64,000 nucleotides of DNA from Paracoccaceae bacterium (GTDB lineage: Bacteria > Pseudomonadota > Alphaproteobacteria > Rhodobacterales > Rhodobacteraceae). The stretch covers positions 33,611 through 97,610 of the forward strand of contig JAGWAS010000015.1 of the NCBI GenBank assembly GCA_021296235.1, written 5' to 3'. Positions within the stretch are counted from its first letter, which is position 1, and each line of letters begins with the position of its first letter. The notes beneath the pieces were generated by a model. That model saw only the letters and a program-made list of their open reading frames with translations. It did no database searches and was not told the DNA's origin. Positions 7,530 to 14,223 of this stretch are shown here, in pieces. The translations under genes and the position numbers were made by a program.

Positions 7530-7552
7530 ATATTCTCGAAAAGTGGGAATAT
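7530..7552. promoter_or_regulatory. Inverted repeat upstream of the AbiEi-like gene, candidate operator
   Basis: ATATTC N11 GAATAT, 23 bp before the ATG at 7576; CGAAAGTG-like motifs recur just upstream. Confidence 0.35.
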
Positions 7553-7575
7553 TTGCTGGTAAATTGTACTTACAC

Positions 7576-8382
7576 ATGAGCAAAGAAGCCGCCATACCTG
7601 AAGGGCGTCGCAAACTGGCCGAGGTGGTCCGGGAAGCTGGCGACATTGTCCGGATCGCCGATGCTGAACGAGCTCTCGACGTCAGTCGTACCGCTGCCGC
7701 CAAGCTGCTGTCCCGGTGGAGCGGGCAGGGCTGGCTACGGCGTGTCGGCCCTGGCGCCTATGCACCGGTCAGTCTCGATTCCCTGATCAGCGAGCAGGTG
7801 CTAGACGACCCTTGGGTACTGGTGCCGGTGCTGTATGACCCTGCCTATGTCGGCGGCCGGACAGCTGCAGAACACTGGGACCTGACAGAGCAGATCTTCC
7901 GCGACATTGTCGTGATGACGGAGCGGTCGGTACGTGCAGGAAGCCAGGAACGTCATGGTGCCAGGTTCACCCTGCGGAACGTCCGGGCGGGCATGATGTT
8001 CGGCACCAAGAGTGTTTGGCGCGGCAGGACCAGGATTGCCGTGTCGGACGTACACCGCACCATCATCGACATGATGGACGATCCTGTGTCGGGCGCTGGC
8101 ATTCAGCATGTCGAGGACTGTCTTACATCCTATTTCGAGCGCAAGGACCGGGACGATGGGAAGCTGGTCGCCTACGCCGATCGGATCGGCAACGGTGCCA
8201 TATTCAAGCGGCTGGGCTTCCTGGCGGAACGCAGGTCCGGCAGTACAGCTCTTCTCGACGCCTGCCGAGAACGGCTGACGAAGGGCAATGCCAAGCTCGA
8301 TCCCGCACTCCCCTGCCGCCGGCTAGTAACGCGCTGGCGTCTCTTCGTTCCGCAGAGCTGGATCCTGGCGGCGCCTGAATGA
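7576..8382 (+). CDS. AbiEi-like antitoxin (type IV TA, winged-helix N-terminus)
   Basis: MSKEAAIPEGRRKLAEVVREAGDIVRIADAERALDVSRTAAAKLLSRWSGQGWLRRVGPGAYAPV...GGRTAAEHWDLTEQIF. Confidence 0.85.
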   Translation: MSKEAAIPEGRRKLAEVVREAGDIVRIADAERALDVSRTAAAKLLSRWSGQGWLRRVGPGAYAPVSLDSLISEQVLDDPWVLVPVLYDPAYVGGRTAAEHWDLTEQIFRDIVVMTERSVRAGSQERHGARFTLRNVRAGMMFGTKSVWRGRTRIAVSDVHRTIIDMMDDPVSGAGIQHVEDCLTSYFERKDRDDGKLVAYADRIGNGAIFKRLGFLAERRSGSTALLDACRERLTKGNAKLDPALPCRRLVTRWRLFVPQSWILAAPE

Positions 8383-9619
8383 TCGATCGCCGCGAGATCC
8401 TCGATACGGCGGAGACCCTTGGTCTGCTGCCTCATGTCGTCGAGAAGGACTACGTGCTGGGTTGGGTTCTTGCCGGGATCTATCGGCAGACGGCTCTCGC
8501 CGAGAGTTGGATATTCAAAGGCGGGACCTGTCTCAAGAAATGCTATTTCGAGACCTACCGTTTCTCCGAAGACCTCGACTTTACGCTCACCGATCCCTCT
8601 CAAATCGATCGCGACTTCCTAGCGGGTATATTCCGCGACATCGGAGAATGGATCTACGAACAGATCGGCATCAAGCTTCCTGAAGAACTGCAGGAATTCG
8701 AAGTCTTCGAAAATTCTCGCGGCACGGTGTCCTGTCAGGGAAAACTGAGCTACCGGGGGCCGATCGCTCCTCGCTCCGGCGGTCTCCCGCGCATCAAGCT
8801 TGATTTGACGCCCGATGAACTTCTCGTGCTGCCGCCGGTCGAGCGCGCCATCTTCCACGAATACAGCGATGCGCCGGCGGAGGGGATCGCCGTCCTATGC
8901 TACGCCTATGAGGAAGCATTTGCTGAAAAGGTGCGTGCCCTCGGCGACCGCGCGCGTCCGCGCGACCTTTACGATGTGATCAATCTGTATCGCAACGCCG
9001 AAGCGCGGCCTCGGGCCGCTGTCCTGCTCGATGTCCTACAGCAGAAATGCAAACACCGCACCCTTGCTGTTCCGTCGCTCAGGGCGCTGGAGACACACAG
9101 AGGCGATCTTGTGAGGGCTCCTGGCAACCGATGCTGGGCCACCAGCTTCAGGTGTTGCCACCTGTCGAAAGTTTCTGGGAAGTACTGCCCGAGTTCTTTG
9201 CCTGGCTTCAGAGAGGCGTGACGCCGGCCGAGCCGGCCACATACCGGCTGGCTGCGGGCGAAACCCTGCTCAGGGAGCGTACCCTGCGCCTTCCGGTTCC
9301 GGGCAGAGTCCAGTCGTATCTGGAGATCATCCGCTTCGCGGCCTCAAACCGCTTGTGCGTAGACCTCGAGTATCTGGGTTCTGTCCGGCGGATCGAGCCC
9401 TACTCGCTGCGCCGCACCCGAGACGACAATATCGTGCTGCATGCCACAAGAGCCTCCGACGGTGGGCATCGGAGCTATCGCATCGACCGCATCCAGGGCG
9501 CTCGAGCGACCCGGCAGAGCTTCATTCCCCGCTTCGCCGTGGAACTGAATCCGCAGGGCGCGCCCGTCATTCCACCGACCGCGAGGCGGGAGGAATCCTC
9601 CGGGCTGTCCCGCAGGTGA
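8379..9619 (+). pseudogene. AbiEii-like nucleotidyltransferase toxin with C-terminal WYL-like domain, apparent frameshift near 9100-9110
   Basis: Frame 1: WIFKGGTCLKKCYFETYRFSEDLDFTLTD to about 9105; continues in another frame as GSWQPMLGHQLQVLPPVESFWEVLPEFFAWL then VDLEYLGSVRRIEPYSLRRT. Starts with a 4-bp overlap on abiEi. Confidence 0.75.
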
Positions 9620-10025: not shown

Positions 10026-10265
10026 ATGAGGAGAACCGACATGCAGATTATGGAGGACATGCTGCGACATCGCCATGAAGGGCTGACGATCGCCGAGATC
10101 GCAGCTGCAACAGGAAGCTCGACCGGAACGGTTTCGCATATTCTTGAACGGGCCCTCAGCGCCGGGCCAAGTGCTCCGAGGACCGTCTTGAACCGGACTT
10201 GGCCGAAGCAGCAAGCACGCCCTTGCGCCTTGACCAAGTGCGGTTTTCAAACCCCGCCGGGCTAG
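10026..10265 (+). pseudogene. Truncated IstA-like N-terminal HTH fragment
   Basis: MRRTDMQIMEDMLRHRHEGLTIAEIAAATGSSTGTVSHILERALSAGP, then no recognisable continuation. Confidence 0.4.
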
Positions 10266-10382
10266 TGGATGAGATCAACATCAAATTGCGCATTCAGAAA
10301 AATTTGATATCCGCCAGTATTTTAGGGACTTATATACTTGCCTAACCATTATCCTTGATAGTCAGAACGCAACAGGATATTG

Positions 10383-10560
10383 AGGGCTAGCGAAGTGCAA
10401 TTCGCTAGCCCTTGTGGTTCGCCACAAATCTTGAGGCGGAAAGGAGGTGATGCCCTATGGAAGGGCTTAAATCCCTGGAAGACGCCGTTAAACCTCATAT
10501 GAGGCGGTGGGTGTAAGGGCGGGAAACCTCCCATAGGGGGATGGTAACAGGAGCCTAACC
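10383..10560. ncRNA. Candidate structured RNA region inside the transposon (strand unresolved)
   Basis: 12-bp perfect hairpin AGGGCTAGCGAA-GTGCAA-TTCGCTAGCCCT; TTGTGG-TTCG-CCACAA; GCCCT-ATGGA-AGGGC; CCTC-ATAT-GAGG; 8-nt long-range complementarity CCCTATGG/CCATAGGG. Confidence 0.5.
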
Positions 10561-10572
10561 ATAGATCAACCG

Positions 10573-11184
10573 TCATGGTTCGACTCCGATCAGAACAAGA
10601 GGCACGGCCGGGACACCCCGGCCCTGCCGGATCACGTTGAGAAGGTCGCGTTCGTAATAGGGAACCCCGCTCGACATCTCTGATTCAAGCGACTTCATGG
10701 GCAGTATCTCAATGCCCACGTCGATCAGGTCCGACACGTAGAAGCTCAGATGCTTGACGAACAGGTCATGTGCGACGAAGGCATACTTGCCGAACTGGAC
10801 CTCCACGGCAACGCGATCTTTCACAAAATCAGTCTGGTTGTATGACATGATTGGTTCGTGACCGGCTGCCTCAATTTCGCGCCTCTGTTCTGCGGCTGAC
10901 AGTTGGTATATGCCGCGCATTAGGCGTTCATCCGACGTAACCCAGAAAGTGTTGCGACGCTCCTCCCACCCCAACGCTTCGAGGCCGTCCTTGAACGCGG
11001 CATTCATATCCAACGGAGAATACAGCAACTGTCCGAGCTTCCTCTGTTCCCATGAAACTTTCGTTCTACATGCTTCCGCGTCCACAGCGTCGATGACGGC
11101 CAGAACCTCCCGCCACAGTTCAGCCCGATGGACCAACAGGTATTCTTCACCGTTTAGATGTGAGTATCGCGCACCGATCTGCAT
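10573..11184 (-). CDS. BglII-like type II restriction endonuclease
   Basis: 203 aa: MQIGARYSHLNGEEYLLVHR...TKVSWEQRKLGQLLYSPLDMNAAFKDGLEALGW...FVKDRVAVEVQFGKYAF; adjacent DNA methyltransferase. Confidence 0.8.
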   Translation of the reverse strand: MQIGARYSHLNGEEYLLVHRAELWREVLAVIDAVDAEACRTKVSWEQRKLGQLLYSPLDMNAAFKDGLEALGWEERRNTFWVTSDERLMRGIYQLSAAEQRREIEAAGHEPIMSYNQTDFVKDRVAVEVQFGKYAFVAHDLFVKHLSFYVSDLIDVGIEILPMKSLESEMSSGVPYYERDLLNVIRQGRGVPAVPLVLIGVEP

Positions 11185-12104
11185 TAGTGCCCGCCCTTGG
11201 GCAGGTCAGGATTGTAGATCGGCTTCCCCATAGGTCTGGTCTTCAGTTCACCATTGCGCCATGCCTCTACCCGTCTCTCGGCAATCGTGACGTATTCCTG
11301 AACCGTGTCGCATCCGTAGGCGTCCCTATTGTGCATCAAGGCCGCAATGACGGCTGATCCTACGCCCATGTATGGATCAAGAACGGCGTCGCCTTCGTCA
11401 GTCATTGACAGCACGAGCCTTTCAACCAGTTCAACTGGGAACTGGCAGGGATGACCTGTCTTCTCGGGATGGTTGCTTTTCACATTCGGAAACTCCCATA
11501 CATCGGTTGGGTTTTTGCCCTTCGGATTGCCTGACAATTTGCCCAAGTTTGGCCCCTTGAAGTGCCTCTTTCCGGGATACTTGGACGGCACCCGGATTGG
11601 ATCCAGATGCCACGTGTAATCGTCCGATGCGGTCCACCAGTTGATTGTCTCATATCGGCCCGACAGCCGCCGCTTGCAATGCAATCCGTGTCCAAAATGC
11701 CAAATGATCCTGTTGCGCAGCTTCAAGCCAAGACGGCGAAATATCGGGTAGGTAAGTGTGTCCAGTGGCATTATCTCTCCGTTGGAGACGTAGTTGCCGA
11801 CCTGCCAGCATATTGAGCCTTGCGGATGCAGCGTTCTTACGCATTCGGCAATCACTGCTGCCTGCTGAGCTAGGTAATCATCCAACGGCGTCCTGGACTC
11901 GTAATCCTTGCCTAGATTGTAGGGCGGCGAGGTCACTACCAGTTTGAAGTGATCGTCTGGAATTCCTCTCAAAAACTCCATGTTGTCCGCACAAGCCATA
12001 ACGGGCACGCGATTGTCCGTGAACGTCTGCGGTCGTTTTGGAAACAGCGACCGAGCCAATGCAACCGGATCGTTGATCACAGGTGGTATAACTGCATCCA
12101 TCAT
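11184..12104 (-). CDS. Site-specific DNA methyltransferase, beta-class motif order (m4C or m6A)
   Basis: 306 aa: VTSPPYNLGKDYESRTPLDDYLAQQ early, DPYMGVGSAVIAAL late. Confidence 0.93.
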   Translation of the reverse strand: MMDAVIPPVINDPVALARSLFPKRPQTFTDNRVPVMACADNMEFLRGIPDDHFKLVVTSPPYNLGKDYESRTPLDDYLAQQAAVIAECVRTLHPQGSICWQVGNYVSNGEIMPLDTLTYPIFRRLGLKLRNRIIWHFGHGLHCKRRLSGRYETINWWTASDDYTWHLDPIRVPSKYPGKRHFKGPNLGKLSGNPKGKNPTDVWEFPNVKSNHPEKTGHPCQFPVELVERLVLSMTDEGDAVLDPYMGVGSAVIAALMHNRDAYGCDTVQEYVTIAERRVEAWRNGELKTRPMGKPIYNPDLPKGGH

Positions 12105-13051
12105 GCCTCTTCTCCCACAAGCTCTTTATACATGAGCCGCTTGCCGACCATCCCTGCAACCATGTCCTGCATCTGCCTTATGGTATCGGCATCACGGATG
12201 TTGTGGCGGCCAGCGAATTCGTTGATGTAGCGGTGCAGATGTTGCGGCGACATGTGATGGAAAGTTCCGTGGTAACCGCGCTTGAGGGCGGCCCAAAAGC
12301 TTTCCATTCCGTTGGTGTGCGCCATTCCGTTGACATACTCGGAAACCGAGTGATTAACGGTCGCATGGTGGTAATCATCCATGCCCCGATACGCCTTGGC
12401 CTCGTCCGTAAAGACCTGCGATCCCGGCTCAACATTGTCCCGGATGAAGCCCTGCAATGTCGGCTTGTCCGTGCTCTCAACGACCTTGGCGGTGATAGTG
12501 TTGGTATCCCGGTCCCTGATGCCAGCAACGGCGGTCTTCCCCACTGGCCCGCGACCGGCCCGGAGCTTCTTCCTGCCGTGCTTGTTCTTCTCTTTGCCAC
12601 CGATATAGGTTTCATCAACCTCGACCGGTCCAGAGAACAGTCCTTCTTCGCTTCCAAATGCTTCCCGGAGACGGTGTGCCATGAACCAAGCCGATTTCTG
12701 GGTGATCTTGAGATCGCGATGCAGTTTCATGCTAGAAACACCCTTGAGGCTCGTTGCATTCAGGTAGATGGCGATGGCCCACTTGCGCAGGGGTATCCGT
12801 GAATGCTCCATGACCGAACCTTGCCGGACCGAAAAGAACTTGCGGCAATCGCGGCACCGGAACGCCATCGGCTTACGGTTCTCCTTGCGCACGGTGTTGA
12901 GGCTTCCGCAATGAGGGCAGTTCCTGTCCCCGTCGGCTGGCCAGCGCACATCCTCGAACCACTTCGCGGCAGTTTCCTCGTTGGGGAACATCTCGAACAG
13001 TTCAATGACGCTCAGCCCTTCACGATGCGATTTTCCCGGTGCTTTTGCCAT
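12101..13051 (-). CDS. IS1595-family transposase
   Basis: MAKAPGKSHREGLSVIELFEMFPNEETAAKWFEDVRWPADGDRNCPHCGS (zinc ribbon), VEVDETYIGGKEKNKH, HTNGMESFWAALKRGYHGTFHHMSPQHLHRYINEFAGRHN. Confidence 0.95.
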   Translation of the reverse strand: MAKAPGKSHREGLSVIELFEMFPNEETAAKWFEDVRWPADGDRNCPHCGSLNTVRKENRKPMAFRCRDCRKFFSVRQGSVMEHSRIPLRKWAIAIYLNATSLKGVSSMKLHRDLKITQKSAWFMAHRLREAFGSEEGLFSGPVEVDETYIGGKEKNKHGRKKLRAGRGPVGKTAVAGIRDRDTNTITAKVVESTDKPTLQGFIRDNVEPGSQVFTDEAKAYRGMDDYHHATVNHSVSEYVNGMAHTNGMESFWAALKRGYHGTFHHMSPQHLHRYINEFAGRHNIRDADTIRQMQDMVAGMVGKRLMYKELVGEEA

Positions 13052-13170
13052 GGTGTTTCTCCTTTCACGAATCAATATAGGGCATTACGCATGGTTAGGC
13101 AAGTATATAATTCCCGTATTTTATGCAGCAAAAAGTGGATCGCGAGGGCCAAGATTTCCTGGTCTCAGGA

Positions 13171-13899: not shown

Positions 13900-14223
<324 letters not shown>

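Follow-up and report, generated by a model that had tools for sequence, protein, structure and literature searches.

A conserved ribosome-binding site and a putative tiny reading frame at the left end of an IS1595-family transposon carrying a BglII-type restriction–modification system

A BglII-type restriction–modification operon within an IS1595-family transposon

The 64,000-nucleotide stretch of DNA analysed here (the window) contains an IS1595-family transposon at positions 10325–13109, recognized by its ends (GGGACTTATATACTTGCCTAACCAT and ATGGTTAGGCAAGTATATAATTCCC), by the match of its transposase and by like ends in relatives. Terminal inverted repeats and an 8-bp target duplication are both present, the latter read directly as GTATTTTA on both sides of the element; related IS1595 elements have the same ends and 8-bp duplications. 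The transposase is encoded on the minus strand at 12101–13075 and matches Pfam DDE_Tnp_IS1595 (PF12762, 1.1e-42) and, as expected of an ISXO2-like DDE transposase, NCBIfam transpos_IS1595 (NF033547, 6e-60). On the same strand lie the genes for an N6/N4 DNA methyltransferase (11184–12104; N6_N4_Mtase, PF01555, 4e-47), whose start overlaps the transposase stop, and for a BglII-type restriction endonuclease (10573–11184; Endonuc-BglII, PF09195, 1.4e-36), whose start overlaps the methyltransferase stop at 11184. These stop/start overlaps point to a single operon of three genes, read from right to left across the element. With a BglII-family endonuclease beside a DNA methyltransferase (PF09195 and PF01555), the cargo belongs to the BglII-type type II restriction–modification (R-M) systems.

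The region studied comprises 180–250 bp at the left end of the transposon, from the left terminal repeat to the endonuclease stop. The preliminary description had placed it inside a transposon and beyond that stop, and the boundaries of the IS1595 element bear this out. The 3' end of the endonuclease gene is convergent with the putative plus-strand mini-gene described below.

Pieces of IS21-family transposase flank the IS1595 element on both sides. The right piece (13921–14223) matches NCBIfam transpos_IS21 (5.7e-21); the left piece (10029–10265) is an HTH segment on the plus strand, directly upstream of the element, which we infer to be of IS21 type. This suggests that the IS1595 element landed in or beside an IS21 copy that has since decayed or was decaying, and, given the plus-strand remnant at 10029–10265, outside transcription may well enter the element. 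Positions 7543–9619 hold a type IV toxin-antitoxin pair, AbiEi/AbiEii (Pfam AbiEi_4, AbiEii); an overlapping frame that matches a WYL domain comes next, perhaps as part of a decayed fusion.

A homologous left end and a strongly conserved block

Nine genomes came up in a search with the endonuclease; in one of them, the distantly related alphaproteobacterial genome G337, this type of transposon is present in four complete copies, which were the sole source of a homologous left end. The four copies (L073–L076) have identical left ends and share contig C1 with one rearranged copy (L077), which suggests that the BglII R-M transposon recently transposed in G337. Between the window and G337, identity is 81% for the endonuclease and about 69% for the element at the DNA level, and the fourfold-degenerate sites of the three genes, at 26%, 30% and 36% identity, are saturated. 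All conservation figures given here come from two independent sequences, the window element and the G337 copies.

A block of 30 nt on the plus strand, CAAATCTTG[A/G]GGCGGAAAGGAGGTGATGCC (10425–10454), is identical at 29 of its 30 positions in G337. The probability of such a match is about 4e-14 at a neutral identity of 0.31, and about 1e-9 to 2e-9 when all placements are considered; the best match in 300 trials with shuffled regions was 21/30. This identity, found despite saturated fourfold-degenerate sites, indicates that the block is under strong selection. Conservation outside the window copy, on which the preliminary description had staked its reading, was thus found, and the region is under real constraint.

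The block includes a near-maximal Shine-Dalgarno sequence of 13 nt, GAAAGGAGGTGAT (10439–10451, plus strand), which is complementary over 12–13 nt to the usual 3' end of alphaproteobacterial 16S rRNA, which we take to be ...AUCACCUCCUUUC. In G000 the 13-mer is found a single time, inside the element, and in G337 it is confined to the four element copies; none of 100 shuffles of the window contains it.

A putative tiny reading frame downstream of the Shine-Dalgarno sequence

A tiny ORF, MEGLKSLEDAVKPHMRRWV, follows on the plus strand at 10457–10516 and has a homologue, MPNIPKPAMTKWL, in G337. In both homologues 9 nt separate GGAGG from the ATG, which puts the ribosome site at a proper distance from the start codon. 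The ORFs are 13–19 codons long, the window and G337 versions differing by 18 nt, in frame, and both end at a common stop, preceded by KPHMRRWV in the window and KPAMTKWL in G337 (consensus KPxMx[KR]W[VL]-stop). At the nucleotide level 19 of 29 positions of the tail are identical (P about 1e-4), a modest likeness that spans 8 codons in two independent sequences, with another frame also scoring positive. In predicted folds the Shine-Dalgarno sequence (10439–10451) is partly paired, which counts against reading this unit as a mini-gene. On balance, a plus-strand ribosome-binding site with a tiny ORF is the probable reading, and translation of the ORF, as judged from these sequence signals, is well supported. 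The region, first described as non-coding, thus appears not to be purely so; the Shine-Dalgarno sequence and the ORF, its most conserved part, had been overlooked.

After the ORF stop, a weak hairpin, ACCTCCC-ATA-GGGGGATGGT (10526–10545, plus strand), occupies the same place as a perfect 12-bp hairpin in G337. This arrangement raises the alternative of a leader-peptide sensor, in which KPxMx[KR]W[VL] would stall ribosomes at the stop and switch the downstream hairpin, setting the reach of an antisense transcript by the logic of TnaC and attenuators, or in which the peptide would act in trans. Such a sensor would fit the C-terminal eight residues and stop that both homologues share, the variable length of the N-terminus and the hairpin after the stop in each, but with two sequences at hand, and with neither the inducer nor the terminator switch having a candidate, we regard it as unlikely.

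Alternative readings of the conserved blocks

A second block, TAACCATAGATCAA (10556–10569), is identical at all 14 positions in G337 and can pair with ATGGTT at 10575–10580 in a 6-bp hairpin that surrounds the endonuclease stop. The conserved blocks adjoin the terminal repeat, and the inner end of that repeat, GCCTAACCAT, recurs in CTAACCAT, whose last letter is at 10562, as might be expected if the blocks were DNA sites at which the transposase or a controller protein binds the left end. The 30-nt block is, however, not a palindrome, the right end holds no equivalent of it, and the ribosome-site match of 13 nt within it is beyond chance, making a DNA-level site very unlikely.

Read on the minus strand, the 30-nt block is an exact 13-nt mimic of the anti-Shine-Dalgarno sequence. 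The 3' UTR of the transposase-methyltransferase-endonuclease mRNA would then contain ATCACCTCCTTTC, a copy of the 16S rRNA 3' end, which could act as an internal anti-Shine-Dalgarno sequence and reduce the translation of this mRNA or of others. Better folding on the minus than on the plus strand would agree with this, but one change in the hairpin conserved in G337 produces a C-A mismatch on the minus strand and a G-U pair on the plus strand, and neither the equally spaced ATG nor the in-frame tail would be expected. We consider such a minus-strand element very doubtful. Although alphaproteobacterial anti-Shine-Dalgarno sRNAs likewise contain CCUCC, as the minus strand does here, the region has no Rfam match, and the motif is more readily accounted for by a ribosome site on the plus strand, of which it is the complement.

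Most of the folding signal comes from a lineage-specific hairpin

The preliminary description had emphasized secondary structure, and the pairings that it reported are all in place: a perfect 12-bp hairpin between the terminal repeat and the mini-gene (AGGGCTAGCGAA-GTGCAA-TTCGCTAGCCCT, 10383–10412), a 6-bp hairpin with a UUCG loop (TTGTGG-TTCG-CCACAA, 10412–10427, plus strand), shorter hairpins such as CCTCAT/ATGAGG (10493–10504), and an 8-nt complement between CCCTATGG (10453–10460) and CCATAGGG (10531–10538). Its view that the region is no simple terminator agrees with our finding of no canonical intrinsic terminator (GC stem with T-run) in 10383–10570, nor at the left end in G337. The absence of a known RNA family was likewise upheld, since Rfam gave no match at the gathering threshold in the window and none at E<=10 in 10200–10700.

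The full stretch folds better than its shuffles, with z of -3.6 on the plus strand and -5.1 on the minus strand. Upon removal of the 12-bp hairpin, z fell to -1.5 on the plus strand, where 16 of 200 shuffles folded as well, and to -2.3 on the minus strand, indicating that most of the folding signal comes from this hairpin. The 12-bp hairpin at 10383–10412 is lineage-specific; it is absent in G337, whose terminal repeat runs straight into the UUCG-type hairpin and whose left end also lacks the partners of the 8-nt pseudoknot. The hairpin at 10412–10427 keeps six of six pairs in its G337 counterpart, TTGCGG-TTTAT-CTGCAA, through one compensatory change (U-A to C-G) and a second change (G-C to G-U) that pairs on the plus strand only, whereas the 12-bp hairpin and the pseudoknot were not kept.

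A structured regulatory RNA with a pseudoknot, serving as an sRNA, a 3' stabiliser or an RNA used in transposition, is highly unlikely, for although the fold scores of the full stretch and the compensatory change in the small hairpin speak for it, the main hairpin and pseudoknot are missing in the sole homologue, the scores without that hairpin are low, Rfam is without a match, and the absence of such a sequence from 15 other related IS1595 elements leaves no sign of a part in transposition. There is a genuine feature here, kept by selection, but the structured-RNA reading was aimed at the wrong part of it. The strong fold score traces to a single hairpin that is not conserved; what is conserved is the ribosome site.

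The element bearing the putative mini-gene is rare among the genomes searched

We searched for the pattern in 387 genomes of the class, 348 genomes of the same family, and 13 family and 11 order relatives, about 750 distinct genomes altogether, and exact copies of the block were found in G000 and G337 only. Near matches that were read look like chance, and no near-match locus had an IS1595 transposase. A further locus (L125) proved to be a right-end terminal repeat only. Against PLSDB plasmids and phages the region gave no match above chance level, nor did the 30-nt block alone against plasmids. Other BglII R-M loci, those of Sphingobium, Komagataeibacter and P. aeruginosa plasmids and of six more genomes, are without the region. 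The mini-gene is also absent from G101, a third BglII-carrying genome with an IS1595 transposase fragment on the same contig, where a small minus-strand gene (MTDTKPVPKRPRGRP...) is found at its position; the mini-gene is therefore not essential for such R-M transposons.

With IS1595-family transposons that carry passenger genes, the window element shares the transposase, the terminal repeats and the 8-bp target duplications. The 15 other related elements of alphaproteobacterial genomes, most of them with clean ends and target duplications, differ in that none has the left region or the tiny ORF (0/15). They carry other cargo, including other R-M or methyltransferase genes, and several have instead, at this end, a small minus-strand gene of about 50–70 codons.

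R-M-like cargo recurs in alphaproteobacterial IS1595-family transposons whose ends are clean and flanked by 8-bp duplications, as in the window (10325–13109) and at loci L036, L039 and L040. The kinds of cargo are BglII R-M, a C5 methylase with a GIY-YIG protein, HsdM/HsdS, and a methylase-HNH fusion. The small minus-strand gene of about 50–70 codons (for example MTDTKPVPKRPRGRPVEKPLPELIPDTPLNIARAIMQGPPKKDWDYLKESK) occupies the mini-gene position in relatives, at the left ends of L036, L037, L039, L040, L047, L048 and L049, and lies beside the endonuclease in L072. No NCBIfam match was obtained for the two members tested, and no Pfam match for the one tested.

Discussion

The reading that we prefer, tentatively and at somewhat less than an even chance, is that the left end of this R-M transposon carries an inward-facing translated mini-gene that acts as an insulator and/or an antisense regulator of the operon. 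A plus-strand transcript would start in, or pass through, the left terminal repeat, and would present in order a small 5' hairpin, the near-maximal Shine-Dalgarno sequence, the ORF of 13–19 codons and a further hairpin, before colliding head-on with the end of the convergent transposase-methyltransferase-endonuclease operon. Any left-end transcript would capture ribosomes very efficiently. The short translated and structured transcript might then protect the R-M operon against antisense transcripts reading in from the insertion site, and/or pair with the 3' end of the endonuclease message, lowering endonuclease output; an antisense relation of the region to the R-M mRNA, already raised in the preliminary description, is possible. 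Several results speak against this reading: a consensus scan, which is blind to other promoter types, found no sigma-70-like promoter in 10200–10700, the ORF is followed by no canonical intrinsic terminator in the window or in G337, and G101 does without the mini-gene.

The regulatory role of the mini-gene is a guess. Even granting the ribosome site and the tiny ORF, an insulating or antisense role falls a little short of evens, the remainder being shared by a functional peptide and a leader-type attenuator. It is distinctly unlikely, though conceivable, that the mini-gene, inward-facing, translated and antisense, governs the R-M system through ribosomes that sense its peptide tail, as in an arrest-type leader, so that translation at the end of the element itself tunes endonuclease output from the transposase-methyltransferase-endonuclease operon.

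At attI1 of integrons, tiny ORFs preceded by good ribosome sites play a part in translation (PMC8876359). ORF-11 and ORF-17 of class 1 integrons resemble the mini-gene in combining a tiny ORF and a good Shine-Dalgarno sequence at the end of a mobile platform, but they feed ribosomes to a downstream sense gene (PMC8876359), whereas downstream of the mini-gene in the window there is only the endonuclease gene in antisense orientation. The EcoRI and Eco29I R-M systems use antisense RNAs, and here too transcription against the R-M operon could tune restriction against modification; those RNAs start at reverse promoters within the R-M genes (PMC3874152), whereas the putative window transcript would start at the transposon end and would itself be translated. 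The mini-gene would be a variant of units already familiar from mobile elements, namely short translated leaders or antisense units.

Type II R-M transposons must hold the endonuclease below the methyltransferase at every new insertion site. We know of no prior description of such a translated unit at a transposon end in connection with R-M balance. If the reading of the left end as an inward-facing translated mini-gene is true, a conserved translated unit at the end that faces outside transcription would be a possible means to that balance.
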